Of a stretch of DNA of 60,162 bases, positions 5,705 to 39,379 are shown one piece after another (the first letter of the stretch is position 1; each line of letters starts with the position of its first letter). The stretch is from positions 1-60,162 of the IMG/VR virus record IMGVR_UViG_3300042197_004886; one strand, given 5' to 3'. The position numbers and the translations under genes were made by a program. The DNA comes from a virus. Under the pieces are notes generated by a model. It searched no databases and had not been told where the DNA came from. It saw only the letters and a program-made list of their open reading frames with translations.

Positions 5705-5756
5705 CCTTAAATAAAACTTTCCTAAATCGCAGGTGTATAAAATCAAAAAGAAACCG

Positions 5757-13492: not shown

Positions 13493-13595
13493 TCTAAAGC
13501 ATCATTATAATATTGAAAAATTAAGTCAATTATCTGATTTTAAATTAAATGATTTTTTCAATAACCATGTTATCTCCAATAGTGAAGAAATAACA

Positions 13596-13928
13596 ATGAA
13601 AGATTTTTATGAGTTGGATGAAGAGCTATTAATTGAATCGTTGGATGGATACGTTAGAGTTGGAGAAAAAATAAAAAAGACCAATTTAGAATGTTATACA
13701 TTGACCTTAGTTGACAGTCGAAAATTGTCTGGAGCATTTAATCACCTGGTTGAAACGAGTAGAGGTTGGGTAAAATTAAAAGAATTAACAAATAATGATT
13801 ATGTATTAACGATTGATGGTCATATCAAAGTAAAAAACATCAGGCAAATTAAAACACAGGACGTATATGATTTAGAATGTTTGCATCCAAATCATAGATA
13901 TCTATCAAATGGCATATCTAATCATAAT
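13596..13928 (+). other. Split intein, C-terminal fragment (IntC, about 111 aa)
   Basis: Ends with penultimate His110 and terminal Asn111, followed by Thr as the +1 nucleophile. It contains the block B His (NHLVE) and block F (VYDLECLHPNHRYLSNGI). It is AT-rich compared with the downstream extein. The IntC start is uncertain between 13446 and 13596. Confidence 0.8.
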
Positions 13929-24282: not shown

Positions 24283-25263
24283 CTAAACCTTTTGCAGGAG
24301 CTCTTTAAAGCTATCTTTTTCCTCTTTGCTTAAATTTGAGAGGTCTGGAGTGATAATATCAAAGCAGATGATGTACTTTCCGACCTCCCTACGCTCGTTT
24401 AGGATGCCCTCAGACTCCAATACAAACCTTAAATCAGTCAGCGTTTTAGGCCCATTGATCTCGGCATCATACCTTTTATTGAGGATAGTTTCGATCCTTA
24501 CCTTTTCTCCCTTTAGTAACACTTTATAGAGCGGCACCTCGACCCTCTGCAAGACATCGTTGCCTAGGATCTCGACGTGTGGCGGCACTTCAAATTCAAT
24601 ATCGACATAGAGGTCGCCGAATATCGGTAGCTGTTCTGTATCTCCCCAGATATTAATATGACCCACTATTTCTTCGTTGCCGATTTTGCCTGCTCTTACT
24701 CTAGTAGAATAGATTCCTCCTTCTCTCTTGATAGGCAGGTGCATTGCTCTAAGATTTAGCTGGATAGCAATCTCTTTCTCCTCCTCTACCTGTTTATAGT
24801 TAAGTAACTTGTCTGTTTTGCCGACTACTTCTACCTTTTTTCTCTTGAACTCAAGTTCAATTTTTTTACCCAGTAGAGCGTCGGCCAGCGGTACCTTTGT
24901 CTTTAGCTTGATGTCTAGGTGTTCAGTGGTCGGCGGTGCCGCATGGGTCTTGCCTTGGCTTGCCCTGGCTCTAGCGTTCTCGTGTGCCCGTGAGCTCTTG
25001 AATTGCTCAGAACCAAAGTTATTTACAAAATCGTTGAATGAAAAACGACCGCTCTCAAATTTACGTGAGTCATCGTACTTTTTTCTCTTCTCTACATCTC
25101 CTAATATTGAATATGCCTCGGCAATCTTTTTAAACCGCTCCTCTGCAGCGACATTGCCAGGATTTTTGTCTGGATGGTACTGCTGTGCCAGCTTACGATA
25201 GCTCTTTTTGATCTCGGTCTCTGTTGCATTTTCCTGAATTTCTAAGATCCTGTAGTGGTCCAT
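24283..25263 (-). CDS. DnaJ-like (Hsp40) co-chaperone without zinc finger
   Basis: 326 residues. The N-terminal J domain (1-66) has the invariant HPD in YHPDKNPGN at about 29-37 and the closing KKYDDSR. A Ser/Arg/Ala linker follows, then two beta-rich client-binding domains ([18 protein letters not shown] through [14 protein letters not shown]). The Cys-rich zinc domain of classical DnaJ is absent, so this resembles class II (CbpA/DnaJB) proteins. It would recruit the host DnaK. Its place just upstream of the protease-scaffold and capsid genes suggests a role in head assembly, by analogy with phage use of DnaK/GroEL; that is inference. Confidence 0.85.
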
Positions 25264-25323: not shown

Positions 25324-25944
25324 ATGGCGGTTTTAGGCAAGAGACTAGAGGAATTTATTGGACTGCATAAAGACCAAAAGATTGTGGTCTGCGGCTGCGG
25401 TACCTCCCTGTCTGAATTTAAGTCAGTCCACTCTGATTACATTACCATTGGTGTCAACGATGTACCTCTGCTTTTTCAGCCGACTTATCTCCTAGTCACC
25501 GACTCTCCAGGTAGATTTAGAACAGAGACCCGAGTAAAAATGGTCAACGGCTCTACTGCAAATTATCTTTTTACCTGTGCTAAAGGTTGGAGACATAGAA
25601 ATATCGTTTACTTTGAACTTGGTTCACAGGCTGCAAAAAACCTGAACAGTCGAACCAAGATCGACCACTTTGTGCACTCTCCATACTGTGCAGTCGGCCT
25701 AGCCTATAAGATGGGTGCCAAGCATATTGGTCTTATCGGGGTCGATTTTACCAACGGGCATTTCTATAACCCTCGTGATGGAGCACACCCTGTGATACAG
25801 ATGAATTACCTAAAGCGGGTAAACTCGGTGTACAGCGCAATGCTTACTGCGCTTTCTGGAAACGGGGTTAGTTTATATAATCTTAGTAGGCAAAGCCTGC
25901 TGGAGGTACCTAAAATAACGATTGATGAGTTTTCCAAACTATGA
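25324..25944 (+). CDS. DUF115/GT42-like glycosyltransferase-fold protein
   Basis: 206 residues from ATG 25324. It opens with a nucleotide-binding strand and loop (KIVVCGCGTSLSEF) and ITIGVND. A later segment, SPYCAVGLAYKMGAKHIGLIGVDF, is followed by VSLYNLSRQSLL. This order matches the fold shared by DUF115/MptE-like proteins and GT42 bacterial sialyltransferases (GNGPSL, then a CAVAIALG-type helix, SGIDF, and a CLCPNSLL-type end). It is first in the glycan island, directly upstream of the CMP-sialate synthetase (ATGA overlap), so a sialyl- or related transferase role is attractive but unproven. Confidence 0.55.
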   Translation: MAVLGKRLEEFIGLHKDQKIVVCGCGTSLSEFKSVHSDYITIGVNDVPLLFQPTYLLVTDSPGRFRTETRVKMVNGSTANYLFTCAKGWRHRNIVYFELGSQAAKNLNSRTKIDHFVHSPYCAVGLAYKMGAKHIGLIGVDFTNGHFYNPRDGAHPVIQMNYLKRVNSVYSAMLTALSGNGVSLYNLSRQSLLEVPKITIDEFSKL

Positions 25945-26594
25945 AGATAATTATTCCAGCTAGGCTAGGTTCAAAGGGCTTGCCTTTTAAGAATCGTACC
26001 CTATTCGACCGCACGGCCAGTATCATTCCTCAGGCCAAGAGAAACTCTACTTGGGTCACTACGGATGATCCTGAAATAGAGGCACAGGCCGTCGATTGGG
26101 GTTTTAACGTGATACGACGCCCTGCTGAACTTTCACAGGACGAAAGCTCGATTCGAGACGTGATGTTGCATGCAGTCAGGCACCTTAATCTAGACAGTAG
26201 GGAGCTTGTGCTCATGCTCTATCTTACCTATCCAGAGCGCACTTGGGCAGATGTCGAAGCGGCTACTGAATTTTTTCTACAGTACTATCAATATGGAGCT
26301 ACCGATTCGCTGCTCTGCAAAAAAGCGGTGAAGAGTCACCCTTACCTCTGTCTAGAGGAGACAGGTATAGGTTCTGCATTTGGTAAGCAGATAACTCCAC
26401 ATGACCTATACCGCCGACAGGACTATCCCACCTGCTTTGAACTGAGCCACTATATCTCGATATTTGAAGCCGGTGCAATCTATCGACTTAATCGCAACCT
26501 TTACTCAAATAATACTGTCTTCTATGGGATCGGGGATCCGGTAGATATCGACACACAAAAAGACCTAGAGTCATTAAATGAGCGTAGCAATTAA
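25941..26594 (+). CDS. neuA: CMP-N-acylneuraminate cytidylyltransferase (NeuA-like)
   Basis: 217 residues, usual length for bacterial CMP-sialate synthetases without extra domains. The N-terminal signature IIPARLGSKGLPFKN is the CTP-binding motif of the NeuA/KdsB group in its NeuA form. VTTDDPEIEAQA, RPAELSQDESS and the terminal GDPVDIDTQKDL follow the family order. It activates a sialic or other nonulosonic acid with CTP to give the CMP-sugar donor. It lies between the GT42/DUF115-like gene and the GT29 fusion, with coding overlaps on both sides, and NeuB is encoded 9 kb downstream. The precise sugar (Neu5Ac, legionaminic or pseudaminic) cannot be told. Confidence 0.85.
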   Translation: MKIIIPARLGSKGLPFKNRTLFDRTASIIPQAKRNSTWVTTDDPEIEAQAVDWGFNVIRRPAELSQDESSIRDVMLHAVRHLNLDSRELVLMLYLTYPERTWADVEAATEFFLQYYQYGATDSLLCKKAVKSHPYLCLEETGIGSAFGKQITPHDLYRRQDYPTCFELSHYISIFEAGAIYRLNRNLYSNNTVFYGIGDPVDIDTQKDLESLNERSN

Positions 26595-27996
26595 TGCCTG
26601 CACCTTTGCCTGTGATGCACAGTTTCCTTTTGTTAGGGTAAGCCTCTACAGTTTTATCCAGCATAATCGTTGGTTTAGTGGTACGGTAAAGCTCATTATT
26701 CACCCAGACTTTCCTCTTTCTGCAACCAACCTTAAGCTGCTAACAATGGTCTATCCCAACCTGGAACAGCACTATATCACGGAAGAGACCTCTTTTTTAA
26801 GAGAAGCTAGGCGCAGCCCCAAGACTTTTCTTTTACAGATAAAGGAGTATGCAAAGCTCTATGTCTTTTCGCTAGGGCAACAGAATCTGCTCTATTTTTC
26901 AAATACTGCCCTCTTCATGAAGGACGTTGCCGGGATGCTACAGCCGCAGAAGATAACCTTTACTAGCGAAAAGTCACTATTTTATCTAGGTAAGGAGTCC
27001 GACCTCTTTTCTCGCTTTGTGGAGGAGTCTCCCAAACATATTGACCTCTTTTTGACCTCTGCCCTAACTGGAGAAGACTTTGATAGAATCGACAACTTGA
27101 CCATATCCGCGACAGTCGTTCGGGACAATAAATTTGCACAGCTCTCCTCGGCCCTGCAGCATGCCAGCTGCATATGCTATAACGACTCTGTCCTGTCGTC
27201 TGGAGTTGGCTATCAGAAGATCAAGCAGGTATGGCTGCATAAGAACAAGGAAGTCGGGCAGGCTCTCTCTTCGCCTAGAGCAATCGCTTTTCCAACAGCA
27301 AATCGTCCTGCCGCTTTGCCGACCCGATCCGCTGCGCCTCCTGTACAAACAGAAGCCTCTTTTTCACAAGAAACAGTACATCTGCCGTCTTCCTCGGGTC
27401 TAGTTCAATCGCATGACCTATTTAGCTATCTAAATGGTAAAAAAATAGCGTTGGTTGCAAATTCTTCTCTTTTACTGGATCACAAATACGGTGCACTGAT
27501 CGACTCACATGATGTAGTTATTCGATTCAACGGTTATCCCATCTCGCCTGAGCATACTGGCACTAAAACCGGCATTCATTTTATTTTTCGACAGGCGCAA
27601 TTCAACCTGGAACAGGCCTGTGATTATCTGGTCGTTCTCTCTAATCCAATCGATCCTTGGAAAAATACAATACGCCATATTTTCAATACCTATCCCACTA
27701 AAAGAATAGTAAATTTTAATTTTCCTCCTAGAAATGCCGTCTCTGCAGCATTTGGCAAGGTAATCGCTCCTACGTCTGGGGTTTGCGCGATATTGTTTAT
27801 CGGTGGGCTGCGTCTTACCTCTGCCACCATTAGCCTATTTGGTTTCAATGGTTATCTTGGAGGAAAGGGCTCCATGTTTCGCTCAAATGAAGATCAGTCG
27901 ATCTCTTCCACCCATAATTATGTAGCTGAGAGAAAATATTTTCAGACAAATTTCAAAGAAATTAGTCCGGGCTTTTTACAAAGAAAAATCACATGA
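26578..27996 (+). CDS. Bifunctional protein: GT8-like domain plus GT29-type sialyltransferase
   Basis: 472 residues. Residues 1-230 look like a GT8-type transferase, but the usual DxD is replaced (LLYFSNTALFMKD), so activity is doubtful. A Pro/Ala/Ser linker covers about 235-275. Residues 288-460 carry the complete GT29 sialyl motif set. Motif L (289-337) includes KIALVANSS, then IDSHDVVIRFNGYP and GTKTGIHF. Motif S (397-423) includes APTSGVCAILFIGG and ISLFGF. Motif VS is His446 with Glu451 (HxxxxE). GT29 is the animal-type CMP-sialic acid transferase family and is rare in bacteria and phages. It overlaps neuA by 17 bases, and the next gene by 4. Confidence 0.82.
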   Translation: MSVAINACTFACDAQFPFVRVSLYSFIQHNRWFSGTVKLIIHPDFPLSATNLKLLTMVYPNLEQHYITEETSFLREARRSPKTFLLQIKEYAKLYVFSLGQQNLLYFSNTALFMKDVAGMLQPQKITFTSEKSLFYLGKESDLFSRFVEESPKHIDLFLTSALTGEDFDRIDNLTISATVVRDNKFAQLSSALQHASCICYNDSVLSSGVGYQKIKQVWLHKNKEVGQALSSPRAIAFPTANRPAALPTRSAAPPVQTEASFSQETVHLPSSSGLVQSHDLFSYLNGKKIALVANSSLLLDHKYGALIDSHDVVIRFNGYPISPEHTGTKTGIHFIFRQAQFNLEQACDYLVVLSNPIDPWKNTIRHIFNTYPTKRIVNFNFPPRNAVSAAFGKVIAPTSGVCAILFIGGLRLTSATISLFGFNGYLGGKGSMFRSNEDQSISSTHNYVAERKYFQTNFKEISPGFLQRKIT

Positions 27997-28856
27997 TAGA
28001 AGTATTCCATTACCGCGAAACCCCAATTGCCGATGCTCCAAAGGAACTTGCCAAGGCAATCAATAAATTTAATTCAAAGTATCGGTGCCACGTAATCGGT
28101 AAGGGTGCAACTACTTCTAGCCAACCCAAGAAATTTGATATTGTGCACGCACACAATAAAATACCTTTAAAGACCATTCGCGTACCAAAAACTATACTTC
28201 AATATCACAGCGAGCCCTGGCAAGTAGACTTAAAGAGCCCAGTACGTGCAAAACTCGTCATTGCTCAATACCATGCGACCCTGCCTCAATATTCGGGCTG
28301 CACCATCGTGCGTAACGTAATTGACTTTACCACGCCACAATACAACTTAAATGAGGTTAGAGACAAGATCAGGATAGGTTTTTCTCCTAGTAGAAAAGAA
28401 AAAATGGGCAGCTGGCACGATAAAGGTTATCAAAAAACCTCAGCCATCTTAAACAACATAAAAAAAATATACGGCGACCTTGTCGAAATCGACGTTATTA
28501 CCGGTGTCTCATTGGAGGAGTGCATTCGTAGAAAATCCAGGTGCAATATTCTGATCGACGAGTGTGTTACTGCAAGCTATCATCGATCTGGTCTAGAGGG
28601 TCTGGCCCTAGGCAAACTGACAATTTGTTCCCTTTCACCGGAGGTGGAACGGGTCTTTTTAAAGTCGTGCGCTGCAACCGCTTCCCCGTTTATCAATGTA
28701 TGGATCAATTCTCTTGAAATTGAGCTGTGCAAAATAATCGATTGTGGCATAGACTATATCATTGAAACTGGGGTTCAGAGCCGAGACTGGATGACTCGCC
28801 ACTGGCACCCACAAGCGATCGTTAATGAATACGTTAAAATATACGACACTCTATGA
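27993..28856 (+). CDS. GT-B (GT4-like) glycosyltransferase
   Basis: 287 residues, shorter than the usual 350-400. An N-terminal Rossmann half (FDIVHAHNKIPLKTIRVP, TILQYHSEPW, CTIVRNVIDF) precedes a second half with RIGFSPSRKEK, VEIDVITGVSLEE, and an ECVTASYHRSGLEGLALGKL segment corresponding to the E-x7-E donor site of GT4 enzymes. It shares ATGA overlaps with both neighbours. The acceptor and sugar are unknown. Confidence 0.7.
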   Translation: MIEVFHYRETPIADAPKELAKAINKFNSKYRCHVIGKGATTSSQPKKFDIVHAHNKIPLKTIRVPKTILQYHSEPWQVDLKSPVRAKLVIAQYHATLPQYSGCTIVRNVIDFTTPQYNLNEVRDKIRIGFSPSRKEKMGSWHDKGYQKTSAILNNIKKIYGDLVEIDVITGVSLEECIRRKSRCNILIDECVTASYHRSGLEGLALGKLTICSLSPEVERVFLKSCAATASPFINVWINSLEIELCKIIDCGIDYIIETGVQSRDWMTRHWHPQAIVNEYVKIYDTL

Positions 28857-29566
28857 AGCTTGGAATATTGATCATCAATCGTAATCATATCGCATATACA
28901 ATAGATCTAATTCATAAACTGGCCGCTCAGACCAGTAAGGATTTTGAGTTGACCATAATCGATAATGGTTCGAGCGAAAGAGACACTAGACCGCGATTAG
29001 CGGAACTTCGCATGCCATTTATCAAAGAAATTAGATATACTGGCAAAAATCTTTCTCTACATACTCTATGGAACGAATTTGTTCTTAAAAACAGTTATGA
29101 GTATTACAGTTTTTTAAACAATGACATGGTGATTCCTAAAAATTTTGTGAGTGATACTCTCGAAGTTTTTAATCGAGAACCTAGCGTAGGCTGTGTTGCC
29201 CATGCGACAAATCACCCCAATTATCAGGAGTGCAAGCCACTAGAGTATGAGATTTTTTCGGATAACTATCGGCAGGGTTGGGATTTTACTATGCGACGCG
29301 AAGCCTACTCACCGGTTCCCAGGTCTCTTCAATTTTTTTGCGGTGACGATTATCTATACGAAAAATTGTATCAAAAGGGCTGGAAATTTGCAATTGTGGC
29401 CAGCTCTCCAATAATACACTTTCAAGGGGCAACTCCACGCGTTCCTGGAATATCTTCTCGAGACATTACTGAATACAAAAAACTTGGATTTAAGCACGGG
29501 AGGCTAGATGTGTGCTTTAAATTGTCTAATTTTAAACCAACCTTTTCAAAAATAGTAGAAAACTAA
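28853..29566 (+). CDS. GT2 family glycosyltransferase
   Basis: 237 residues. GILIINRN and LTIIDNGSSERDTRP form the nucleotide-binding part. YSFLNNDMVIPKNF holds the NDM (DxD-equivalent) metal site, and FFCGDDYLYEKLYQKG the acceptor-side acidic pair. GT-A fold, inverting. Part of the tightly overlapped plus-strand glycan operon. Confidence 0.8.
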   Translation: MKLGILIINRNHIAYTIDLIHKLAAQTSKDFELTIIDNGSSERDTRPRLAELRMPFIKEIRYTGKNLSLHTLWNEFVLKNSYEYYSFLNNDMVIPKNFVSDTLEVFNREPSVGCVAHATNHPNYQECKPLEYEIFSDNYRQGWDFTMRREAYSPVPRSLQFFCGDDYLYEKLYQKGWKFAIVASSPIIHFQGATPRVPGISSRDITEYKKLGFKHGRLDVCFKLSNFKPTFSKIVEN

Positions 29567-29575
29567 GTAATCACT

Positions 29576-30184
29576 ATGAGAATTTCAGTTATAATGGCTT
29601 CGTACCTAGAACATTACAGCACAGGCAAATTTGATGCAGCGACTAACCGCGAATTCAAGTTTAGACGGGCGGTAAATTCTTTTTTGGAACAAACATTCAA
29701 GGATGCTGAACTCATAGTGGTAAGCGATGGCTGTAAAAAAACATCTCTCATCACTAGACGCGAATATTTAAGCAATCCCTCAGTTCGGCTAGTTCAAATA
29801 CCCAAGCAGACTCTATTTAGTGGAAAGGTTCGTCAGGCTGGTCTGAATGTAGCCAGAGGAGAAATTGTCTGTTATCTGGACAGCGATGATTATTTTGGAA
29901 AAGATCACCTTGCAGCAATTAATAGGTTCAACGATCGGGATTACATGTGGGCATATTACGATGATTATATCTTCAATGGCACCGACAAAAGGATCAGACA
30001 TGTCGAGCCCAAGGCAAATCGAATCGGCACTAGTTCCATCTGTCATCGTCGTAAGTGCCCATTCCATTGGGCCGACGGGTATGGCCATGACTGGACAAGT
30101 ATTAGTCGTATTCTAAAGGAAAGGCATTACAAATTACAAACACCGGACTATGTAGTCTGTCATGTTGGCAAAATTGATGTATGA
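29576..30184 (+). CDS. GT2 family glycosyltransferase
   Basis: 202 residues. ISVIMASYLEHY at the start, FLEQTFKDAELIVVSDGC, ARGEIVCYLDSDDYFGKDHL with the DSDD metal motif, and GHDWTSISRIL toward the end are classical GT2 landmarks. The C-terminus is short. It is the last of the moderately GC-rich glycan genes. After it the DNA becomes distinctly AT-rich. Confidence 0.85.
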   Translation: MRISVIMASYLEHYSTGKFDAATNREFKFRRAVNSFLEQTFKDAELIVVSDGCKKTSLITRREYLSNPSVRLVQIPKQTLFSGKVRQAGLNVARGEIVCYLDSDDYFGKDHLAAINRFNDRDYMWAYYDDYIFNGTDKRIRHVEPKANRIGTSSICHRRKCPFHWADGYGHDWTSISRILKERHYKLQTPDYVVCHVGKIDV

Positions 30185-30209
30185 CTGAATTAAATAAAAT
30201 AAAGAAACT

Positions 30210-30860
30210 ATGAAAATACTATACAAATTAACAAGTCGGTCCAGACCGGACAAACTTCTTAAAGTCATTGAAAATATTAAAGCATTTAGTCGACACCCGG
30301 AATACACAATATTGTGTTCTTTAGATCTTGATGATAATTCTCTCACTCCAATAAAAGAGGCTCTTCATAATATCGATAGAGTAATTTGTCATTATGGAAT
30401 TTCCAAATCAAAAATACATGCAATTAACCGGGATATGGATAAGGCCGGTGATTGGGATATTCTATTCAATGTTTCCGACGATCAGCTATTTTTAGTAGAA
30501 GGATTTGATCTTCTTGTAATAGATAAGGTGAAGGAAGTCGGTGGCGATTGTTTTTTACACTATCCTGACGCAAATGTAAAACAGAAGCTTGCAACCATGT
30601 CCATTATGGACAGAAAATATTATCAAAGATTTAATTATATTTACCATCCTAGTTATATTAGCTTGTGGTGCGATAATGAAGCGATGGAGGTTTCACAAAA
30701 ATTAGGCAGATATTTTTACACTGATTTGCAAATATTTGATCATTATCATCCAGCATACGGTAAAGCCATTAAGGATCCACAATATACAAAAACTGAAAGT
30801 TATTATCACATAGATAAAAAAACTTTCGATAGTCGCAAAAAAATAGGATTTCCAAGATGA
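30210..30860 (+). CDS. GT-A-like glycosyltransferase
   Basis: 216 residues. ILYKLTSRSRPDKLLKVIENI and YTILCSLDLDDNSL resemble the N-terminal half of GT-A glycosyltransferases. WDILFNVSDDQLFLVEGFD supplies an SDD metal motif, and DHYHPAYGKA supplies a late His-rich loop. The family is not certain. AT-rich. A TAAATAAAATAA run lies just upstream, a weak variant of the late word. Confidence 0.6.
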   Translation: MKILYKLTSRSRPDKLLKVIENIKAFSRHPEYTILCSLDLDDNSLTPIKEALHNIDRVICHYGISKSKIHAINRDMDKAGDWDILFNVSDDQLFLVEGFDLLVIDKVKEVGGDCFLHYPDANVKQKLATMSIMDRKYYQRFNYIYHPSYISLWCDNEAMEVSQKLGRYFYTDLQIFDHYHPAYGKAIKDPQYTKTESYYHIDKKTFDSRKKIGFPR

Positions 30861-31489
30861 ATACGAGTTATAGTCAAAATGGAGAAGATTTGATAATTGA
30901 AGAGTACTTTAAAACCCTCAATTTAAAAAGTCCCAGATTACTCGATCTTGGGGCAAATGATGGAATAACTCTTTCAAATAGTTATAAGTTATTAAAAAGT
31001 GGAAAGTGGCATGGAGTTTTGGTTGAACCGTCTGTTGAAGCGTACCGACGGTTACAAGAAAATTTGAAGGGACTCTCAGTAACTCTTTTAAATTTTGCAA
31101 TTGGAACAAATGACGGAGTCATTGATTTCATGGAATCTGGAGCTCATTTTTCAAATGGAGCAGATATTGCGTTAGTAAGTACGATAAGCGAAACTGATTA
31201 TAATAAATGGAAACACACAACTAGCTGGAAAAAGTATCAAGTTAATGTGTTTACAATAGATACTCTCTTTTCTAAGCTAGGTTATGATAAATTTGATTTT
31301 GTATCGATGGACATTGAAGGAATGGACTTACATGTACTTAAACAGATGGATCTTAGCCGCATGGAAGTAAAGTGTATGTGTGTGGAACACAATGGTAAAG
31401 ATATTGATCACTACGTCAACTATTGTCAAAAATACGGACTTATTGAAACTTCTAGAAATGCTGAAAATATTATTTTTATAAAAAAATGA
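30857..31489 (+). CDS. FkbM-family methyltransferase
   Basis: 210 residues. YSQNGEDLIIEEYF, then LLDLGANDGITLSNS (SAM motif I), VLVEPSVEAY (acid that binds the SAM ribose), TIDTLFSKLGYDKFDFVSMDIEGMD, and VEHNGKD follow the FkbM order exactly. It probably O-methylates a sugar of the glycan being built. ATGA overlaps with both neighbours. Confidence 0.85.
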   Translation: MNTSYSQNGEDLIIEEYFKTLNLKSPRLLDLGANDGITLSNSYKLLKSGKWHGVLVEPSVEAYRRLQENLKGLSVTLLNFAIGTNDGVIDFMESGAHFSNGADIALVSTISETDYNKWKHTTSWKKYQVNVFTIDTLFSKLGYDKFDFVSMDIEGMDLHVLKQMDLSRMEVKCMCVEHNGKDIDHYVNYCQKYGLIETSRNAENIIFIKK

Positions 31490-32052
31490 AACCTGCCCCT
31501 CTTCTTTCAATATTGATATGTTCTCTACATAAGAGAATCGATAAATTATCAAATTTATTATCGACTTTGAATCCACAAGTAGACTCGTACCCTAACCTGG
31601 TTGAACTAATTGTAAATATGGACAATAAGATTTTGTCTACTGGTAAAAAAAGACAACTATTGTTAGAACAAGCTTCTGGTGAATATATTGTTTTCATAGA
31701 CGACGACGACCACATCGACCATGAATATGTGTCTCTAATACTTTCTGCTTTAAAGACTAAGCCAGATTGTGTTGCTACTACTGGATGGTATACCAGTGAT
31801 AATGGAGAAAAAACAGTATGGTTTCTTTCTAAGGATTTGGAAAATGAGAATAAAAACGGTTATTTCTATAGAACAACGAATCATATAAGTCCAGTTAAAA
31901 GAGAGCTTGCGTTAGCCGTAGGATTTAAACCTATTTCATTTGGCGAAGACGCAGACTATAGCGCTCGATTAAAACCGTTGTTAAAGTCTGAAACTAAAAT
32001 AAATAAGCTTATCTATCATTACGATTTTAAAAGTACAAATAAAGAATATTAA
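31486..32052 (+). CDS. GT2 family glycosyltransferase (short)
   Basis: 188 residues. LSILICSLHKRI, LLLEQASGEYIVFIDDDDHIDHEY (DDDD metal motif) and FGEDADYSARL (acidic ED pair) define a compact GT2 enzyme. AT-rich codon use like the next genes. Confidence 0.8.
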   Translation: MKPAPLLSILICSLHKRIDKLSNLLSTLNPQVDSYPNLVELIVNMDNKILSTGKKRQLLLEQASGEYIVFIDDDDHIDHEYVSLILSALKTKPDCVATTGWYTSDNGEKTVWFLSKDLENENKNGYFYRTTNHISPVKRELALAVGFKPISFGEDADYSARLKPLLKSETKINKLIYHYDFKSTNKEY

Positions 32053-32055
32053 TTT

Positions 32056-32826
32056 ATGAATTCCAATACTAAATTACAATTACCTTCTGTGACTCTCATG
32101 TGCATAGATTGTGTTGATGTAAATAGAGCAATTGCCGTTGTAGAACATTGTAAAACACTTTGCGATTTCGGCAAAGTTAAAGTCTTAACTAGTTTGCCTA
32201 CTGATTATGAGCATATTAAAATAATGCCTCTTAATTCGCTTGTAGAATATTCCATTTTTATGTTGACTGAGTGTAGTAAATATATTGATACTGAACACGT
32301 ATTAATTATTCAAAGAGACGGGTGGATCCTAAATACTAAAACTTGGGACAATGAGTGGTTAAATTACGATTATCTTGCTCCAGTGTTCAATCAATATGAC
32401 ATCGTTGGAAGTGGAGGATTCTCGTTTAGGTCTAAAAAATTAATGGACACTCTTACTGAATGGATGCCAAAATGGGATGGTACCCCTGATGGAGCGAACG
32501 AAATTCAATCACAAGTTGGGTATTATGAAGATGGTGTTATTGCATTCAGTGAAGAACTAAGAAAAAAATTTAATTATGCGCCAATTGATGCTGCAAATAA
32601 ATTTGCGCAAGGAGGAAGTATGAATCTTGAAACATACTATGAATTTCCATTTGGATTTCATGGATCCGCTAGAGTTATAAATCATGAAACTGGAGAAGTT
32701 GGCCCTCCTTCCGATTGTGATCATGATGGACTATGTGGCTGCACTCATAAAAAAGGATTTGCTGCAAAGCAATTAGAACTTAAGCTTATTGAGCTTATGA
32801 AAAAATACACAAACTACAATGGATAA
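32056..32826 (+). CDS. DUF5672-type glycosyltransferase-like protein
   Basis: 256 residues. VTLMCIDCVDVNRAI, then HVLIIQRDGWILN, WLNYDYLAPVF, and DIVGSGGFSFRSKKLMD match the DUF5672 pattern found in glycan loci, in which QxDGW and GNGGFSLR are the landmarks. A C-terminal Cys-rich segment (CDHDGLCGC) is unusual. Catalysis has not been established for the family to my knowledge. It overlaps the next gene by eight bases. Confidence 0.7.
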   Translation: MNSNTKLQLPSVTLMCIDCVDVNRAIAVVEHCKTLCDFGKVKVLTSLPTDYEHIKIMPLNSLVEYSIFMLTECSKYIDTEHVLIIQRDGWILNTKTWDNEWLNYDYLAPVFNQYDIVGSGGFSFRSKKLMDTLTEWMPKWDGTPDGANEIQSQVGYYEDGVIAFSEELRKKFNYAPIDAANKFAQGGSMNLETYYEFPFGFHGSARVINHETGEVGPPSDCDHDGLCGCTHKKGFAAKQLELKLIELMKKYTNYNG

Positions 32827-33700
32827 AAAGATAACACATTTACGAAAAACTGATATACATAGCACGTTAACTACGTGGATATACTGCCATTTTGCGATGA
32901 TGTGGGCAGCCGAGCAGCAGGGATTATTATCCTACATTGATTGGCATGAGGGAGGCTTTTTAAAATCTTATGAAGACAAAGAAATGTTCGCAAAGAGCCC
33001 CAACGCGTATGACTGGTACTTTAAACAACCGATGGTTCCCTTTGCTGGGGGTGCCAAAGAGATACGTACATGGGAAACATGGCAAGATCCTTCGCCAATT
33101 CCGTTCATGGCACAACCGCTTTCAGTAATTAAGGACTACTATAAAAAACATCTTGTTTTCAATGACTATGTTAACGAAAGAGGAAAGCAAATAGTAGATA
33201 GGTATGGAATCGATTTTAGTAAGACCATTGGAATTACGTGGAGAGGAACAGACATTTATTTAGAAAGTTTAAACGGAAATTCAGGCAGAAAATATACACC
33301 TATTGAATATTATTTCCCTTGGATAGATAAGGCATTGGAGCAGATTCCTGATGCACGTATAGCGTGTACCAGCGAAGAAACTGGAATACTCGAACCTTTA
33401 TTTAAAAGATACCCACAGGCATTTATGATTGACGAATTTTATCAGGCCCCAAAGGGAAGCAAAGATAATCCTGAAAGATTTAGCCCAGTAAGCGGATTTG
33501 AAAGAGGATTGCAACCAGCATTAATGGTATGGTTATTCAGCAAGTGTGCATGGTTAATAAAAAATAGAGCAAGTACAAGTGCAGTTGCTTCTTGGTTAAG
33601 CGATGGGGAGATAGTGAATATCTGTCACACCGAAATATTAGGATTTCCTCCACACCTTGATGGGATTGAATATAAAGGTCAAGTATATCCAATAATATAA
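32819..33700 (+). CDS. Fucosyltransferase-like (O-FucT/GT23 fold) protein
   Basis: 293 residues. SKTIGITWRGTDIYLES followed by YTPIEYYFPWIDKALEQIPDARIACTSEET resembles the GDP-fucose site of alpha-1,2/1,6 and O-fucosyltransferases (HxRxTD-like, then a D/S-E-x-x strand). The N-terminus (WIYCHFAMMWAAEQQG) is also of that type. The basic pocket residue appears as Trp-Arg-Gly-Thr-Asp. The donor assignment is inference. Confidence 0.55.
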   Translation: MDKKITHLRKTDIHSTLTTWIYCHFAMMWAAEQQGLLSYIDWHEGGFLKSYEDKEMFAKSPNAYDWYFKQPMVPFAGGAKEIRTWETWQDPSPIPFMAQPLSVIKDYYKKHLVFNDYVNERGKQIVDRYGIDFSKTIGITWRGTDIYLESLNGNSGRKYTPIEYYFPWIDKALEQIPDARIACTSEETGILEPLFKRYPQAFMIDEFYQAPKGSKDNPERFSPVSGFERGLQPALMVWLFSKCAWLIKNRASTSAVASWLSDGEIVNICHTEILGFPPHLDGIEYKGQVYPII

Positions 33701-33720
33701 TAACAATACTCTCGAGAAAT

Positions 33721-34689
33721 ATGAATTACTGCGTACTAACAACTATTAATAAGCCGACCAAGGCAATCGAAGAACTTTATAAGAAGTTCGGAAATAATCT
33801 CATTATTGTAGGAGACAAAAAAACACCCAATGATTGGGACTACAACGGCATTAAGCCAATTTTAGGCACTACGAGTTTCGCTCCCGACAACCACTATGCA
33901 AAAAAGAATTTAGGTTACTTGGAAGCAATGAAAAAAGGTGCAAAATTAATCTATGATACAGACGATGATAACATTCCCAATGATACATGGAGTATCAGGA
34001 AATTAGAAACAGAGACAGACTTTTCTAAAACTGAGAAAGGATGGTACAATGTATATTCTTATTTTAAAACTAATATTTGGCCTAGAGGATTTCCTTTAAA
34101 TATGATAGGGCAGACTACGGCAAGCTCAGCAGGACATGGTGTGGTTCTAAGTTCTATTCAACAGGGTCTATCTGATGGAGAGCCCGACGTAGATTCAATT
34201 GCACGATTGGTACTAAAGGATAGAGATACTATATTTGCTGACAATCGAAGTATTAATTTGCAACCTTATACATGGAGTCCATTTAATTCTCAGACTACAT
34301 GGTGGTTCCCAAAAGCCTTTCCATTAATGTATCTGCCAGTTAACTGTTCATTTCGAATGACTGACATTTGGAGAAGTTTCATTGCACAAAGATGTTTGTG
34401 GGAAATTGGCGAATGTGTTACTTTTCATTCGCCCTCCGAAGTAATTCAAGAACGTAACGATCATAACCTAATGAAGGATTTTGAGGATGAAGTGCCGGGA
34501 TATCTTTTAAACGAAAAGATTATTGAAGTATTGAATGATTTATTTTTGAAAAGTGGAGAAGAATTCATGTGCGAAAACTTATTAACTTGCTATGAGGCCC
34601 TGGTAACAAACAAAATTTTACCATTAAAGGAAATTGATTCAGTAAAAAAATGGATAAGCGATTATGAAACTACAAGAAATTTGGAATAA
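33721..34689 (+). CDS. STELLO-like (DUF288) glycosyltransferase
   Basis: 322 residues. YCVLTTINKPTKAIEEL, LIIVGDKKTPNDW, APDNHYAKKNLGYLEAM and AKLIYDTDDDNIP are the four landmarks of the STELLO/DUF288 GT-A-like family, with DTDDDN as metal site. Related proteins occur in plants, algae, giant viruses and some phages. The sugar donor is unknown. It overlaps the next gene by 26 bases. Confidence 0.75.
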   Translation: MNYCVLTTINKPTKAIEELYKKFGNNLIIVGDKKTPNDWDYNGIKPILGTTSFAPDNHYAKKNLGYLEAMKKGAKLIYDTDDDNIPNDTWSIRKLETETDFSKTEKGWYNVYSYFKTNIWPRGFPLNMIGQTTASSAGHGVVLSSIQQGLSDGEPDVDSIARLVLKDRDTIFADNRSINLQPYTWSPFNSQTTWWFPKAFPLMYLPVNCSFRMTDIWRSFIAQRCLWEIGECVTFHSPSEVIQERNDHNLMKDFEDEVPGYLLNEKIIEVLNDLFLKSGEEFMCENLLTCYEALVTNKILPLKEIDSVKKWISDYETTRNLE

Positions 34690-35230
34690 GTTAAGTTTAC
34701 AAGGCTATGCTTCCGATAAAGGGGATATACATAGCTATTTGCCAGTATATGAAGAAATATTGGCACCATACCGTGAAACTGCTAAGAATGTTCTTGAAAT
34801 AGGATTATTTCATGGTCATTCTTTAAGGATGTGGGAACAATATTTTACCAATGCCGATGTTTACGGCATTGATTGTAGTGAAACACCTCACGATGGAATG
34901 GCAGATCTCAGGCCTATGATTGCAGAGGGCACTCATAACATTAATATCATGGACGCCTGTAACAAATCAGAAGTAAAAAAAGTATTTGAAGGTAAAATGT
35001 TTGATTGCATTATAGAGGATGCAGGTCATGCCATTTCTCAGCAGTTTGAGCTTTATTCTATTTGGAAAAAATATCTTTCTCCAAATGGTATTTATATAAT
35101 TGAGGATGTTCAAGATATAGATAATGACATATCGAGATTAAAATGCATCGACCCCGACAAAGAAATAAAAATCATCGATCGTCGATACTTGAAAAACAGA
35201 TATGATGACGTATTAATCATCATACATTAA
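34664..35230 (+). CDS. Class I SAM-dependent methyltransferase (CmcI/sugar O-methyltransferase-like)
   Basis: 188 residues. SDKGDIHSYLPVYEEIL, then NVLEIGLFHGHSLRMW (motif I), VYGIDCSETP, FDCIIEDAGH (catalytic DxxH region) and YIIEDVQDID follow the layout of small sugar O-methyltransferases related to CmcI and mycinamicin MTs. It ends the AT-rich glycosyltransferase series. Confidence 0.75.
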   Translation: MKLQEIWNKLSLQGYASDKGDIHSYLPVYEEILAPYRETAKNVLEIGLFHGHSLRMWEQYFTNADVYGIDCSETPHDGMADLRPMIAEGTHNINIMDACNKSEVKKVFEGKMFDCIIEDAGHAISQQFELYSIWKKYLSPNGIYIIEDVQDIDNDISRLKCIDPDKEIKIIDRRYLKNRYDDVLIIIH

Positions 35231-35254
35231 TTTTTTCTTTAAAAATATTTTTTG

Positions 35255-35437
35255 ATGAAAGAAATAACCCCATCTCAGCTTGCTAATCAGTTCGTAAACG
35301 ACGAAGACCTCGGTAGAGAAATTCGCAAGCATGTACTAGATTCTCACGAAAAAAACACTATTTTGGCAAATCTCGCGTTGGGCTTTCCAAACGACTTTGA
35401 TCTTGGTCAAAAGATCAGAGCACTCTTTGTCGACTAA
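35255..35437 (+). CDS. Small hypothetical protein
   Basis: 60 residues from ATG 35255 (a TTG one codon earlier is possible). Acidic, helical (VNDEDLGREIRKHVL). No family recognised. It is flanked by short AT-rich gaps. Codon use returns to the GC-richer phage style. Confidence 0.55.
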   Translation: MKEITPSQLANQFVNDEDLGREIRKHVLDSHEKNTILANLALGFPNDFDLGQKIRALFVD

Positions 35438-35464
35438 AACTCTTTATCCGTTTTTTAGTTCTTA

Positions 35465-35472
35465 ATAAATAA
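35465..35472 (+). promoter_or_regulatory. Late-promoter-like word before neuB
   Basis: AATAAATAAAAG, only nine bases before ATG 35482, so any transcript from it would have almost no leader. Confidence 0.4.
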
Positions 35473-35481
35473 AAGCGACAC

Positions 35482-36372
35482 ATGGAAAAAACAATAATAG
35501 TCGCCGAAATCGGCATTAACTATGCGTATGGCGAGGATCCTGCTCGATTTGTCGATAATGTCAAGCGACTGATTGATATTGCCTCTATTGCTGGCGCAGA
35601 CTACGTTAAATTTCAAAAGAGGGATCCTCACGTCTGTGTGCCTATGGCTGAACGTGAAGCCCCAAAGTCCGTTCCTTGGAGAAGAGAGCCGACTACTTAT
35701 TTTCAGTATAAGCTCGATATTGAGCTCTCGTTAGAGCAGTACAAGGAGATCGATGCCTACTGCGATCAGAAGGGCATGCTCTGGTTTGCCTCTGCTTGGG
35801 ACAAGAACTCAGTTGATTTTTTGCGTAAGTTTCAGACTAAACTGCCCAATGGAAAATGGGGCACAGTAATAAAGATTCCATCGGCTTTAATCCATGATCT
35901 TGAGTTAGTAGAGTATGCTAGAGACTGTTCGGACTTTCTCCTTATCTCTACTGGCATGAGTACCCAAGAGGAAATAGACCTTGCTATCGAGGAAGGCCGA
36001 CCGAACGTCGTATTTCACACCAACTCCAGTTATCCTGCTCCAATAAACGAATTAAATATGGAGTATATTCGTTATCTTTCTCATTTGAATGCATCACGAG
36101 AATTTAACAATGCATTTGAAGTAGGATATTCATCTCATGAAAGATCGATTGTTACTTGTGCTTCATCTATTTTATATGGAGCAACTTGGATAGAGAGACA
36201 TATCACAATAGATAGAAATTTCTGGGGAAGTGATCAGTTGAGTTCATCAGATCTTCCTGAATTTGCATCGTTAATTAAAAACATTCGCGAAATAGAGTCA
36301 TCTAGAGGCATATATGGATTGCGTAAAGTATTTAAGTCAGAATTACATAAAAAGAAGACTTTAAGAGGATAA
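35482..36372 (+). CDS. neuB: Sialic-acid (nonulosonate) synthase, NeuB family
   Basis: 296 residues. IIVAEIGINYAYG, AGADYVKFQKRDP, LDIELSLEQYKEI, WFASAWDKNSVDFL, KIPSALIHDLELV, LISTGMSTQEEI, HTNSSYPAP, VGYSSHERSI and ERHITIDRNFWGSDQLSS follow the NeuB TIM-barrel order, with Lys, His and Glu positions that bind PEP and the divalent metal. It condenses PEP with an N-acetyl-hexosamine. The C-terminal SAF (antifreeze-like) domain of typical 340-residue NeuB is missing; the chain ends soon after the barrel (KKKTLRG). The last 320 bases are AT-rich, and a homing endonuclease follows within 26 bases, so the 3' end may have been replaced. No NeuC is seen, so the sugar precursor may come from the host. 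Confidence 0.85.
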   Translation: MEKTIIVAEIGINYAYGEDPARFVDNVKRLIDIASIAGADYVKFQKRDPHVCVPMAEREAPKSVPWRREPTTYFQYKLDIELSLEQYKEIDAYCDQKGMLWFASAWDKNSVDFLRKFQTKLPNGKWGTVIKIPSALIHDLELVEYARDCSDFLLISTGMSTQEEIDLAIEEGRPNVVFHTNSSYPAPINELNMEYIRYLSHLNASREFNNAFEVGYSSHERSIVTCASSILYGATWIERHITIDRNFWGSDQLSSSDLPEFASLIKNIREIESSRGIYGLRKVFKSELHKKKTLRG

Positions 36373-36376
36373 ATAA
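36369..36376 (+). promoter_or_regulatory. Late-promoter-like word before the endonuclease
   Basis: GATAAATAACT overlapping the neuB stop, 21 bases before ATG 36398. Confidence 0.45.
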
Positions 36377-36397
36377 CTAAAATAGGTTATTCAGGAT

Positions 36398-37363
36398 ATG
36401 AATCAAATTAGTTGTAAAATATGTAATGAAACAGACTTAGCTAAAATGAAAAGTGCAGTCTTTAAAAAAACGAATAGCAGAAAATACTATAATATTTGTA
36501 TATCATGCTATTCAAAAAAGATGAAAGACTCTCTATTGGCTACTTGTAAAAACTATTCTACTGAAAAAATAGAAAAAGCTAAACAAAAAAGAAAAGAAAC
36601 TAATTTGAAAAAATATGGAACTGCCTTCCCTCAAAAATTAGATTCAGTAAAATTAAAAACGAAGCAAAATAATTTATTAAAACATGGAGTTGAAAATCCT
36701 TGGCAATCCAAACAAATTAAAGACAAAATAAAAAAGACTAATTTAGAAAGATATGGAGTTGAATATGTTTCTCAATCTAATCTTATTAAAAATAAAAAAT
36801 TAAATTCATGGTTTTCTAAAAAACCAGAAGAACGTCAAAAAATAATAAATAAAGCAAATTCAACAAAGAGATCGAAGACTGATTCTCAAAAATTAAAAAC
36901 TAAGGAGCTGAGAGAAAACACAAATTTACATAAATATGGAGTCAAAAATATTGGTCAATTAAATTATTCATATTCTAAAATATCTCAAGAATTATTTAAT
37001 TCGATATATTTAAAATTACCCATATTTCTTCAGCAAAAAACGTATTACGCATCATTAAATTTTGAATTTATACGAAAATTTAATGAATCAACGTACTTAT
37101 ATGATTTTACCATAACATCAATAAAGAAAATTATAGAGTTTAATGGAGATCTATGGCATGCGAATCCACTAAAATATCCTGATCCTAACTTAAAAATGAA
37201 AAGATTAAATGGAATTACGTGTAAAGAAATATGGGATAGAGATTTTAAAAAAATACAACACGTCGAGTCAATTGGATATTCTGTTAAGGTCATTTGGGAA
37301 AACGACTATGTAAAAAATAAAGAAGAAACCGTCGCTTCTTGTATATCATGGCTGTTAAATTAG
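36398..37363 (+). CDS. EDxHD (Vsr-like) homing endonuclease with LKKYG repeats
   Basis: 321 residues, strongly AT-rich. The N-terminus has a Cys-pair motif (CKICNETD, then CISCYSKK). Next come four to five copies of a target-binding repeat of the type T-N-L-x-[KR]-[YH]-G-[VT] at about 60-190 (TNLKKYGTAFP, NNLLKHGVENPW, TNLERYGVEYVSQSN, TNLHKYGVKNIG). The C-terminal nuclease domain reads YLYDFTITSIKKIIEFNGDL, then WHANP, then EIWDRDFKK and VKVIWENDY, as in the intein-associated endonuclease at 12296. Free-standing here, between neuB and unrelated genes. Confidence 0.8.
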   Translation: MNQISCKICNETDLAKMKSAVFKKTNSRKYYNICISCYSKKMKDSLLATCKNYSTEKIEKAKQKRKETNLKKYGTAFPQKLDSVKLKTKQNNLLKHGVENPWQSKQIKDKIKKTNLERYGVEYVSQSNLIKNKKLNSWFSKKPEERQKIINKANSTKRSKTDSQKLKTKELRENTNLHKYGVKNIGQLNYSYSKISQELFNSIYLKLPIFLQQKTYYASLNFEFIRKFNESTYLYDFTITSIKKIIEFNGDLWHANPLKYPDPNLKMKRLNGITCKEIWDRDFKKIQHVESIGYSVKVIWENDYVKNKEETVASCISWLLN

Positions 37364-37403
37364 TACAATTACTTTTAAACATTTTAAAATCTTTACGTGG
37401 AAA

Positions 37404-37706
37404 ATGAAAATCACACCAAAAAAAGTATTTCAATTCATCGAGGGCAACTTGAAACTGCTCGGCGACCGTATGCACCTCCTTCCAGTGCACGAACGTGAGC
37501 AGGTGCTCTACCGATCACAGATCTGTAAAGACGACTGCATGGTCTATGAATACTGTACTTACTGTGGCTGCTCTATTCCAGGTAAGCTATACGTGAAGGA
37601 GTCCTGCAACGGCGGTGAGCGATTTCCCGACCTGATGGGGGCCAAAGAGTGGGAAGAGTACAAGTTAAAAAACAATATTGAGATCAAAGGTGACCTACTT
37701 CATTGA
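37404..37706 (+). CDS. Small Cys-rich (zinc-finger-like) protein
   Basis: 100 residues. CKDDCMVYEYCTYCGC then ESCNGGERFPD gives five closely spaced Cys plus one further on, a likely zinc-binding knuckle seen in small T4-type phage proteins. Function unknown. It overlaps the following HAD gene by up to 29 bases. Confidence 0.65.
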   Translation: MKITPKKVFQFIEGNLKLLGDRMHLLPVHEREQVLYRSQICKDDCMVYEYCTYCGCSIPGKLYVKESCNGGERFPDLMGAKEWEEYKLKNNIEIKGDLLH

Positions 37707-37995
37707 TATCGACGACACTATCTGTACCCTGTCGGGCACAATGCAGTACGAGACCGCTCAACCCATCGCAAAGGCTATTGAAAAAGTTAATCGTCTCTTT
37801 GAGGAAGGACACAGAGTTATTTTCTGGACTGCTAGAGGAACCAAATCCGGTCTGGATTGGAGACAATTAACAGAGGCTCAGCTCCTCTCTTGGGGCGTCC
37901 AGTATCACGAGTTAAGGTTCGGTAAGCCAGTATACGATGTCTTTATCGACGACAAAAATATCAACTCGGAGGACTGGTTAAATGCAAAAGACTAG
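37678..37995 (+). CDS. Small HAD-superfamily phosphatase
   Basis: 105 residues from TTG 37678 (GTG 37690 also possible). Motif I FIDIDDTIC supplies the nucleophile and acid Asp pair. IFWTARGTKSG is motif II/III, and VFIDDKNINSEDW is motif IV. Short cap-less HADs of this type occur in capsule and LPS loci and in phages. It may dephosphorylate a sugar or nucleotide intermediate; the substrate is not visible. The stop overlaps the next start by 14 bases. Confidence 0.75.
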   Translation: MRSKVTYFIDIDDTICTLSGTMQYETAQPIAKAIEKVNRLFEEGHRVIFWTARGTKSGLDWRQLTEAQLLSWGVQYHELRFGKPVYDVFIDDKNINSEDWLNAKD

Positions 37996-38590
37996 AGTAC
38001 TTCTGCTGGGAAACAGCCCCCAAATAAATGAGATTCAATTTGATCTTCTACAGGAGGGAATCATCACGCTTGGCTTGAATCGAATCTGGTTAAAACACAT
38101 TCCTGATTACTTTTTCTTTCACGATCTAATTATCTCAAACGAGCTCAGTCGACAGCCTGAAATCCTTGCACAGCTTATCCAAAATTCTACTATTTTTTCA
38201 AGCGAATGGATTCGAAAGAACAAGAACAACGTTATTCCTAAATGGACTACCTCCTATCCTATGCCGCCATCTCAAGGTTTTCCAGATTCGGCTTCGCTCT
38301 CGATACAGATATTTTCAAAGCATATCATGAAGAGCAAACGGGTTTCGTTTTATGTTGCTGGGGTACCTCTGCTTTGGCAGGAGCCTAGCCATTTTTGGAA
38401 ACAACTTGAATACTCTCCCAGCGCGGCTGGCGACAAGGCCTGGTATGACCACCGCTTTCCTAAAATGTTACAAAACTTTAGAACTTTAAAGAATTTGGGC
38501 TATGATATCACGTCGGTCACTCCAGGATCTGCTTTAAACAAGCTCTTTCGTTACGAGAGCATTGAGAATCTCTATAAGAAGAGACTATAG
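37982..38590 (+). CDS. Unknown protein with GT42/DUF115-like start
   Basis: 202 residues. RVLLLGNSPQINEI and ITLGLNRIWLKHIPDYFFFHD resemble the opening of the 25324 protein and GT42/DUF115 folds (GNSP loop, then a GLNR strand). The later part is divergent (FYVAGVPLLWQEPSHFW). A sugar-transfer role is suggested by that and by its place at the end of the glycan island, with low certainty. Its end overlaps the convergent baseplate gene by six bases. Confidence 0.5.
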   Translation: MQKTRVLLLGNSPQINEIQFDLLQEGIITLGLNRIWLKHIPDYFFFHDLIISNELSRQPEILAQLIQNSTIFSSEWIRKNKNNVIPKWTTSYPMPPSQGFPDSASLSIQIFSKHIMKSKRVSFYVAGVPLLWQEPSHFWKQLEYSPSAAGDKAWYDHRFPKMLQNFRTLKNLGYDITSVTPGSALNKLFRYESIENLYKKRL

Positions 38591-39379
38591 GGAGACCTTT
38601 ACTGTCTTAGACAACACCGTCTCTTTAAAGGTGTTAACGATTGCGCTTGCTGCACCGGGAGTAGGCGGAAATTTTGCGTCTACTACTGATGCCATTGCAG
38701 TCAGCAACAAAAATAGAGTATCGCCTAATACTGCTGGGCCCATTACTGGACTGTGGCCGACTTTGACAAAGTTACCGTTCACCCATATCTCGTTAGAGGC
38801 TGCCTCGATCTCGCTACCGGAGGTCACCTCGATCCTTGAATTTGCATGGATAGAGATATTGCCTCCTCGCAATTCAATAATCGACTGGGACTCCGAGTGC
38901 TCAATGGTAATACTCTTGTCTCGACCAATATTTACCCTAGAACCCTTCAGCTGCATGGTGATGCCCTTTGAAATAGTAAACCAGACCTTAAGCTCTTCGT
39001 CGCCGTCGAACAGCACCACATGGGAGCCTAAATACTCTCCGTCTTTGCCCAATTCCTCACGCACGTCCTCTGCAATCTCGTGCAAAGAATAATACTCGGG
39101 CGAGTATGGGTTTCCGTTATCGAATCGCACTGCAACTACTGCTCCTTTCTTTGGTACTGATAGCGAGCCACCAAGCCCGTCCTTGCCAAAGTAGGCGCTC
39201 TTTTGTTTGGGATAGGCCCAAGGCAGATCCTCTACGGGAATATCGTCATAGAGACTAATTACCCGAATCCTGGCTCTGCCCTCTTTGCGCGGATCGTTTG
39301 GGTCTTCGACTATTCCCAAGAACTGCTTGTCTACTAAGTCTAGCCCTCTGCGTTCGATATCGTGATTTTGGTCCATCAT
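38585..39379 (-). CDS. 5: Baseplate central spike protein (gp5/VgrG-type)
   Basis: 264 residues. An N-terminal OB-fold segment (FLGIVEDPNDPRKEGRARIR, then DLPWAYPKQ) is typical of gp5. KKGAVVAVRFDNGNPYSPEYY precedes a beta-helix-like region with repeated short strands (SITIEHSESQSIIEL, GNISIHANSRIEVTSG, EIWVNGNFVKVGHSP). The lysozyme domain of T4 gp5 is absent. It would form the trimeric membrane-piercing spike under the tail tube. A CTAAATAA word lies 22 bases upstream. Confidence 0.8.
   Translation of the reverse strand: MMDQNHDIERRGLDLVDKQFLGIVEDPNDPRKEGRARIRVISLYDDIPVEDLPWAYPKQKSAYFGKDGLGGSLSVPKKGAVVAVRFDNGNPYSPEYYSLHEIAEDVREELGKDGEYLGSHVVLFDGDEELKVWFTISKGITMQLKGSRVNIGRDKSITIEHSESQSIIELRGGNISIHANSRIEVTSGSEIEAASNEIWVNGNFVKVGHSPVMGPAVLGDTLFLLLTAMASVVDAKFPPTPGAASAIVNTFKETVLSKTVKVSL

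Follow-up and report, generated by a model that had tools for sequence, protein, structure and literature searches.

A glycosyltransferase island of a T4-like phage probably encodes CMP-nonulosonate synthesis and carries a GT29 sialyltransferase-family domain

The IMG/VR contig IMGVR_UViG_3300042197_004886 (60,162 bases, analysed whole and called the window here) comes from a T4-like large phage, recognised by its major head protein, head maturation protease and baseplate genes, and carries on its plus strand a glycosyltransferase-rich island of 19 open reading frames (ORFs). We conclude that this island probably encodes a pathway for cytidine monophosphate (CMP)-nonulosonate together with transferases, along a phosphorylated route that does without NeuC, and that the glycan is most likely carried by the virion. 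An earlier note on this DNA had named four ORFs, for NeuB, NeuA, a GT8-like/GT29 fusion and a GT42/DUF115-like protein, all of which proved intact and correctly placed. They do lie in one island, but its extent had been drawn too short (25324-36372), the island spanning positions 25324-38590. Below, the GT42/DUF115-like gene is called g1, the fusion gene g3 and a small HAD phosphatase gene g18.

Residues 281-472 of g3 (26578-27996) are, by family profile and predicted fold, a true member of family GT29. This C-terminal domain matched PF00777 with an E-value of 7.5e-9 and 35.8 bits (36.8 in a second scan) against a curated cut-off of 23, and phmmer aligned it with ST3Gal1 at 6e-5. When a profile of 46 homologs was searched against the PDB, ST3Gal1 was found at 1.5e-32 and the GT42 enzymes lay further off (2e-8); PF00777 was matched by 41 of 41 homologs. 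The AlphaFold (AF2) model of the domain had a predicted local distance difference test score (pLDDT) of 92.8, and its 30 best PDB matches in Foldseek were all GT29 enzymes (probability 1.00), the best fold match being CMP-sialic-acid-bound ST6Gal1 (E=4e-9). Profile search and structure prediction thus both place the domain where the earlier note had put it. Sialylmotifs L (308-319 and 328-335), S (397-407) and VS (His446, Glu451) are present as claimed, and across 41 homologs N15, S16, D29, R36, N38, G121, H166 and E171 (domain numbering) vary little or not at all. However, the set of family motifs is not complete, for sialylmotif III, which is seen in other phage GT29 proteins, could not be recognised in the clade of the window domain or in its Actinomycetota relatives. 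The window protein is therefore a GT29 member atypical by motif that has the profile and the fold of the family. The L/S Cys pair of opisthokont GT29 enzymes, reported missing in bacterial GT29 (PMC5811610), is not evident in the window domain either.

The domain had been called animal-type and its family mostly eukaryotic. The first label fails, GT29 being widespread in phages and bacteria. A peptide-pattern search with the domain found no relatives; GT29 carriers were found with a degenerate DNA pattern built on the L motif, which matches the window once, with 0 matches expected in 100 shuffles of the window. At least 100 viral contigs and at least 100 GTDB contigs matched, and a seven-member profile scored nearly all of the matches listed as GT29. 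Nearest to the window domain among the matches listed were three phage proteins (52-55%); further phages and Actinomycetota came next, at about 33-37%. A tree of 91 domains placed that of the window in a clade of 17 rows (100/98) made up of phages and Actinomycetota, and the two animal sequences included, ST3Gal1 and ST6Gal1, fell outside it. This tree and the abundance of the family in bacteria led us to reject a eukaryotic source for an animal-type GT29; judged from sequence, the GT29 of the window does not derive from animals.

Bacterial members of GT29 have been in the literature since 2018 (PMC5811610). The enzymes of Streptomyces, Cellulomonas and Promicromonospora resemble the window protein in that Actinomycetota share the clade of its domain, the nearest of them with 33-36% identity, but differ in having an N-terminal region of another kind, and in one Cellulomonas genome NeuB lies on a separate contig. 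At Actinomycetota loci such as L137 and L187, the GT29 domain follows a long N-terminal region, an arrangement very common in Streptomyces and relatives. Among viruses, a protein of an uncultured Caudovirales phage (A0A6J5NLG3 in UniProt/BFVD; 492 aa) is named 'Glycosyl transferase family 29' and has 57% identity over the GT29 domain with a template modelling (TM) score of 0.95; the name is an automatic domain name, and no published pathway, context or function was found for it. The cultured Stenotrophomonas phage DLP_6, which has no NeuB, encodes a GT29-like 'hypothetical protein' (L009, 116909-117700) whose neighbours are a nucleotide-sugar transferase and a methyltransferase.

NeuA (g2) matched PF02348 (2.3e-7), its best PDB relatives were CMP-N-acetylneuraminate synthetases (1e-10), and the motifs ARxGSKG, RRQ and DxDT were kept in most of 12 phages, all of which agrees with the name given to it before. 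Its score against the PseF equivalog was 42 bits with a cut-off of 205.7, and hence its sugar was not assigned. An identity of g2 as CMP-Kdo synthetase was discarded, as PseF/NeuA-type models and structures scored better. The NeuA gene overlaps g3 in the window, and on the 201-kb contig L045 NeuA (PF02348 7.9e-21) and GT29 (PF00777 6.5e-14) form one protein, the end of which is overlapped by NeuB. On contig L066 the C-terminal part of NeuA and GT29 are read in one frame, probably a second NeuA-GT29 fusion, and the contig has an open frame of 453 aa. GT29, NeuA and NeuB also adjoin one another in a Pelagibacteraceae genome. When whole contigs were compared, NeuB was present on 15 of 15 GT29 phage contigs classed as linked and on 0 of 33 others, a count tempered by the choice of part of the 15 for a NeuA or NeuB already seen near GT29 and by the shared ancestry of relatives, which are not independent events. 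For six of the 15, NeuA alone was visible in the stretch first read, and all six proved to carry NeuB. The NeuA-GT29 fusion and the NeuB linkage indirectly but well support CMP-nonulosonate as the putative donor of the GT29 domain, which very probably uses the NeuA product. The earlier proposal that the phage produces a nonulosonic acid of its own and transfers it gains support from the same evidence and from the conserved locus at which NeuB, NeuA and GT29 occur.

NeuB was named correctly as well (PF03102, 4.8e-51, with the metal-binding His pair). The protein of 296 aa ends before the SAF domain. H219, E238, H240 and D251 are invariant in 12 phages and the catalytic core (Lys, His, Glu-Arg-His, Asp) is kept, but the Glu that Neisseria NeuB carries in KIGSGE is replaced by Leu. 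It scored 153 bits with NeuB_NnaB and 101 bits with PseI; the NCBIfam equivalog cut-off for N-acetylneuraminate synthase in the strict sense is 399.65 bits. In the NeuB tree, the SAF-less enzymes of phages, Bacteroidota and alphaproteobacteria stand apart from Neisseria NeuB, PseI and SpsE (96/97), whereas the full-length NeuB of L045, a contig without the HAD, groups with that of Neisseria. The SAF-less subfamily (E<=1e-70) was found in 137 of 396 Bacteroidota genomes versus 7 of 385 drawn from the class to which the Pelagibacteraceae genome belongs. Among cellular NeuBs, the nearest that were found belong to Bacteroidota, lack SAF and lie next to a HAD resembling Kdn 9-phosphate (Kdn-9-P) phosphatase. 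A HAD lies directly upstream of NeuB in at least 9 of the 12 Bacteroidota loci read. For the one such HAD tested, Kdn-9-P phosphatase was the best NCBIfam match and the PDB match was 3e81, which we take to be BT1713. One relative of the window, L002, has a degenerate NeuB of 243 aa (13631-14362) that lacks the ERH...GSD catalytic stretch; its NeuA and g1 are intact.

NeuC, the absence of which had been noted before, is missing systematically: PF02350 (NeuC/WecB) was found in 11 of 14 control genomes and in none of 22 phage records, the window contig likewise lacking it. A gene missed because of a fragmentary contig was rejected as an explanation, five of these records having 484, 299, 207, 201 and 200 kb. 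NeuC is probably missing because of a phosphorylated route via the SAF-less NeuB subfamily. The phage HAD g18, with the motifs DxDxT, TARG, GKP and DD, is of a type present on 14 of 15 linked contigs versus 1 of 22 others, usually beside NeuB. A comparable logic of synthase, HAD phosphatase and CMP synthetase is known from the Kdn-9-P pathway of Bacteroides thetaiotaomicron and Prymnesium parvum, whose Kdn-9-P synthases (BT1714 in the former) use mannose 6-phosphate (PMC6200933). From this context the window NeuB may be a Kdn-9-P synthase that would use mannose 6-phosphate.

The fusion reported for g3 contains both parts, but the GT8-like N-terminal part has lost its DxD, reading YFSNT where the bona fide GT8 proteins of sister islands, which match PF01501, have LFLDAD; it is predicted to be non-catalytic. 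The C-terminal domain is swapped among relatives: that of the window is GT29 and that of L006 GT2, L003 has a true GT8 followed by an S-motif-like domain, and L002 has none. L065 unites a dead GT8-like domain, a true GT8 and GT29 in a single protein. For g1, the GT42/DUF115-like description held by fold but not by family score. The AF2 model (pLDDT 91.5) matched Maf best in Foldseek (5mu5, 1.8e-5), followed by MptE and CstII, and PF01973 gave 21.1 bits, below its cut-off of 34.6. Related phages have g1 with 46-61% identity. That g1 is itself a GT29 was dropped, direct profile comparison giving 6.5% probability. Maf enzymes O-glycosylate flagellin at Ser/Thr with nonulosonates (PMC11339370). 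They share the fold of g1, but g1 is a 206-aa core only and phages have no flagellin. On its model, g1 may be a second nonulosonate transferase and is the main hint toward protein glycosylation; with query TM-scores that are moderate (0.42-0.61), this role stays a lead.

On this evidence, the SAF-less NeuB would condense phosphoenolpyruvate with a hexose 6-phosphate of the host, either mannose 6-phosphate to Kdn-9-P or N-acetylmannosamine 6-phosphate to N-acetylneuraminic acid (Neu5Ac) 9-phosphate, and g18 would take off the 9-phosphate. Formation of the CMP-nonulosonate by NeuA is strongly supported by homology. The GT29 domain, tethered to the dead GT8-like domain, would cap with nonulosonate a glycan assembled by variable glycosyltransferase and methyltransferase genes, g1 perhaps serving as second transferase; the phage's own virion would be the likeliest object decorated. 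The features of the island, all on the plus strand, are as follows.

25324-25944, plus: g1, candidate transferase of Maf/MptE/GT42-like type, 206 aa; opens the conserved core and shares 4 bases with NeuA
25941-26594, plus: g2, NeuA, CMP-nonulosonate synthetase by PF02348, PDB relatives and motifs, 217 aa
26578-27372 (end approximate), plus: g3, N-terminal GT8-like part without DxD, predicted non-catalytic from comparison with sister islands
27418-27996, plus: g3, C-terminal GT29 sialyltransferase-family domain (Pfam, PDB profile, AF2 and Foldseek)
27993-34689, plus: variable middle with GT2s and others by Pfam; content varies among sister islands
27993-28856, plus: glycosyltransferase-like ORF of the variable middle (Pfam)
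30857-31489, plus: FkbM methyltransferase of the variable middle (Pfam)
32056-32826, plus: DUF5672 protein of the variable middle (Pfam)
33721-34689, plus: STELLO-like protein of the variable middle (Pfam)
34664-35230, plus: methyltransferase (Methyltransf_24, Pfam 5e-8)
35482-36372, plus: g15, SAF-less NeuB-family synthase, from PF03102 and tree position
36398-37363, plus: homing-endonuclease-like ORF between NeuB and g17 (PHROG homing endonuclease, 6.8e-15)
37404-37706, plus: g17, conserved Cys-rich protein, 100 aa; 71-79% identity in L084, L107 and L002
37678-37995, plus: g18, small HAD phosphatase, proposed nonulosonate-9-phosphate phosphatase, from HAD motifs and context
37982-38590, plus: g19, remote g1-like protein (hhalign probability 64% with g1), last gene of the island; 43-58% identity in L107, L084, L003 and L065

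The island is enclosed by a block of virion genes and flanked by a DnaJ-like gene (24283-25263, minus strand) and a baseplate gene (38585-39379, minus strand). L002, L003, L006, L016, L065, L084 and L107 repeat one gene order at this position, not every gene being found in each: DnaJ on the opposite strand, g1, NeuA and g3, then a variable middle, then NeuB, g17, g18, g19 and the baseplate gene. Recurrence of the gene set at one position in many related phages marks it as a real phage trait, and core identities of 40-65% indicate maintenance and not recent copying. NeuB and g17 overlap in L107, where the homing-endonuclease-like ORF is absent, so that this ORF looks like an insertion in the window.

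More distant phages share parts of the system. Besides NeuA, a SAF-less NeuB and the same HAD, huge phage LR756508 (L012, 484 kb) has a homolog of g4 and several GT29 genes, but the latter stand alone, some with sialylmotif III, and no GT8-GT29 fusion was present in the stretch read. At about 308-327 kb of this genome, NeuA, NeuB, HAD, genes resembling sugar-nucleotide epimerases/dehydratases and several GT29 genes lie within 20 kb. By its major capsid protein (20564-22210), the window is closest to huge phage LR756500 (38%), and Lak phages follow at about 31%. A Bacteroidota host is suggested by this Lak-like capsid and by the NeuB subfamily. Moraphages and Lak phages are aquatic jumbo phages of Bacteroidota with core glycosyltransferases, some with DnaJ, but sialic acid is not mentioned in the paper describing them (PMC12619734); the moraphages are a plausible home of the window phage.

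Several points weigh against the proposed pathway. The case is made from sequence, gene context and models, and besides the selection and ancestry behind the linkage counts, many phage GT29 carriers such as DLP_6 and three bacterial GT29 genomes are without any NeuB; GT29 alone is hence no proof of nonulosonate. The Bacteroidota HAD reached 138.9 bits, below the Kdn-9-P phosphatase equivalog cut-off of 180, and g18 does not belong to the KdsC or the Kdn-9-P phosphatase (BT1713) family. It is EcbF/BcbF-like, with profile matches to 1xpj and to the capsule-biosynthesis HAD 9iqw (1e-19), and in this it differs from the Kdn-9-P pathway. Since the phage HAD is from another family, the dephosphorylation step is drawn from context. 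We nevertheless lean toward the 9-phosphate route; Kdn as its product rather than Neu5Ac falls a little short of an even call. NeuB could instead make Neu5Ac from free N-acetylmannosamine supplied by the host as in Neisseria, with another job for the HAD, and the better NeuB_NnaB score and the kept core residues agree with this. We consider it rather unlikely in view of the distance to the equivalog cut-off, the missing SAF domain, the Leu in KIGSGE, the separate clade and the lack of NeuC in all 22 records. Another possibility is that GT29 takes CMP-Kdo of the host and that NeuA and NeuB serve another transferase such as g1. Some NeuB-less GT29 phages have a CTP_transf_3 protein (LR756500, L022), and L002 keeps NeuA though its g3 has no C-domain; against the NeuA-GT29 fusion, the overlap of NeuA with g3 and the NeuB on every linked contig, this reading appears quite unlikely.

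With respect to the target of the sugar, which the sequence does not point to by any acceptor signal (a further point against), the virion leads, with confidence just under even. The Maf-like g1, the site among virion genes and the lack of export or polymerisation genes in Pfam scans of the island point to it; a collagen-like tail fibre (4502-5671) is a possible acceptor, and virion glycosylation is known in other phages according to papers cited in PMC12619734. Its main rival is the host surface, where a glycan on lipopolysaccharide or capsule would block superinfection or remodel the host during infection. A whole cassette of capsule/lipopolysaccharide type, a HAD resembling a capsule-biosynthesis protein and the serotype-changing phage glycosyltransferases mentioned in PMC12619734 fit this possibility, but the Pfam scans found no flippase, polymerase or O-antigen ligase, g1 resembles protein-modifying enzymes and the island sits inside the virion block, and we rate the host surface as distinctly the less probable target. 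Modified phage DNA is very unlikely: phage glycosyltransferases can hypermodify DNA (cited in PMC12619734) and a thymidylate-synthase-family gene is present at 5733-6614, but that gene is distant from the island, among whose Pfam families there is no DNA-modification gene.

GT29, NeuA, NeuB, HAD and phage glycosylation are each of known kind. Neither nonulosonate synthesis by phages nor phage GT29 was the subject of any paper found in our literature searches, in which few subscription journals were covered. As far as these searches show, there is apparently no description of the conserved phage module, of SAF-less NeuB paired with HAD, of NeuA fused to GT29 or of a dead GT8-like scaffold that carries swappable C-domains. 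A broader idea, which we hold to be doubtful, is that a lineage of large phages has a modular virion-sialylation platform in which a fixed NeuC-free core, making CMP-nonulosonate by a phosphorylated route, and a dead GT8-like scaffold with an exchangeable catalytic domain (GT29, GT2, DUF115/GT42-like or none) would give relatives differing coats that contain nonulosonate. Animals, bacteria and some eukaryotic viruses are known to make and attach sialic-acid-like sugars. If the pathway operates as proposed, phages would make and attach such sugars of their own, the unexplained glycosyltransferase islands of large phages would gain a concrete biochemical target, and GT29 would be no hallmark of animals. 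The phages would also be a source of GT29 enzymes, and of a NeuA-GT29 fusion directly testable in E. coli.

Elsewhere in the window, an AT-rich (28% GC) endonuclease-like ORF is followed by a helicase-like ORF (12296-15404), the start of which resembles the C-terminal part of an intein (SNHN before TGKSY); from its sequence this is possibly an intein or a split arrangement. The DNA polymerase ORF (58100-60019) has an apparent intein-like insertion at its YTDTDS motif, with the end ...DILVHNS. At 54505-55989 there are four short tandem genes, highly similar to one another, with repeats of DGSVKEEEWYQNDKLHRLDGPA type.

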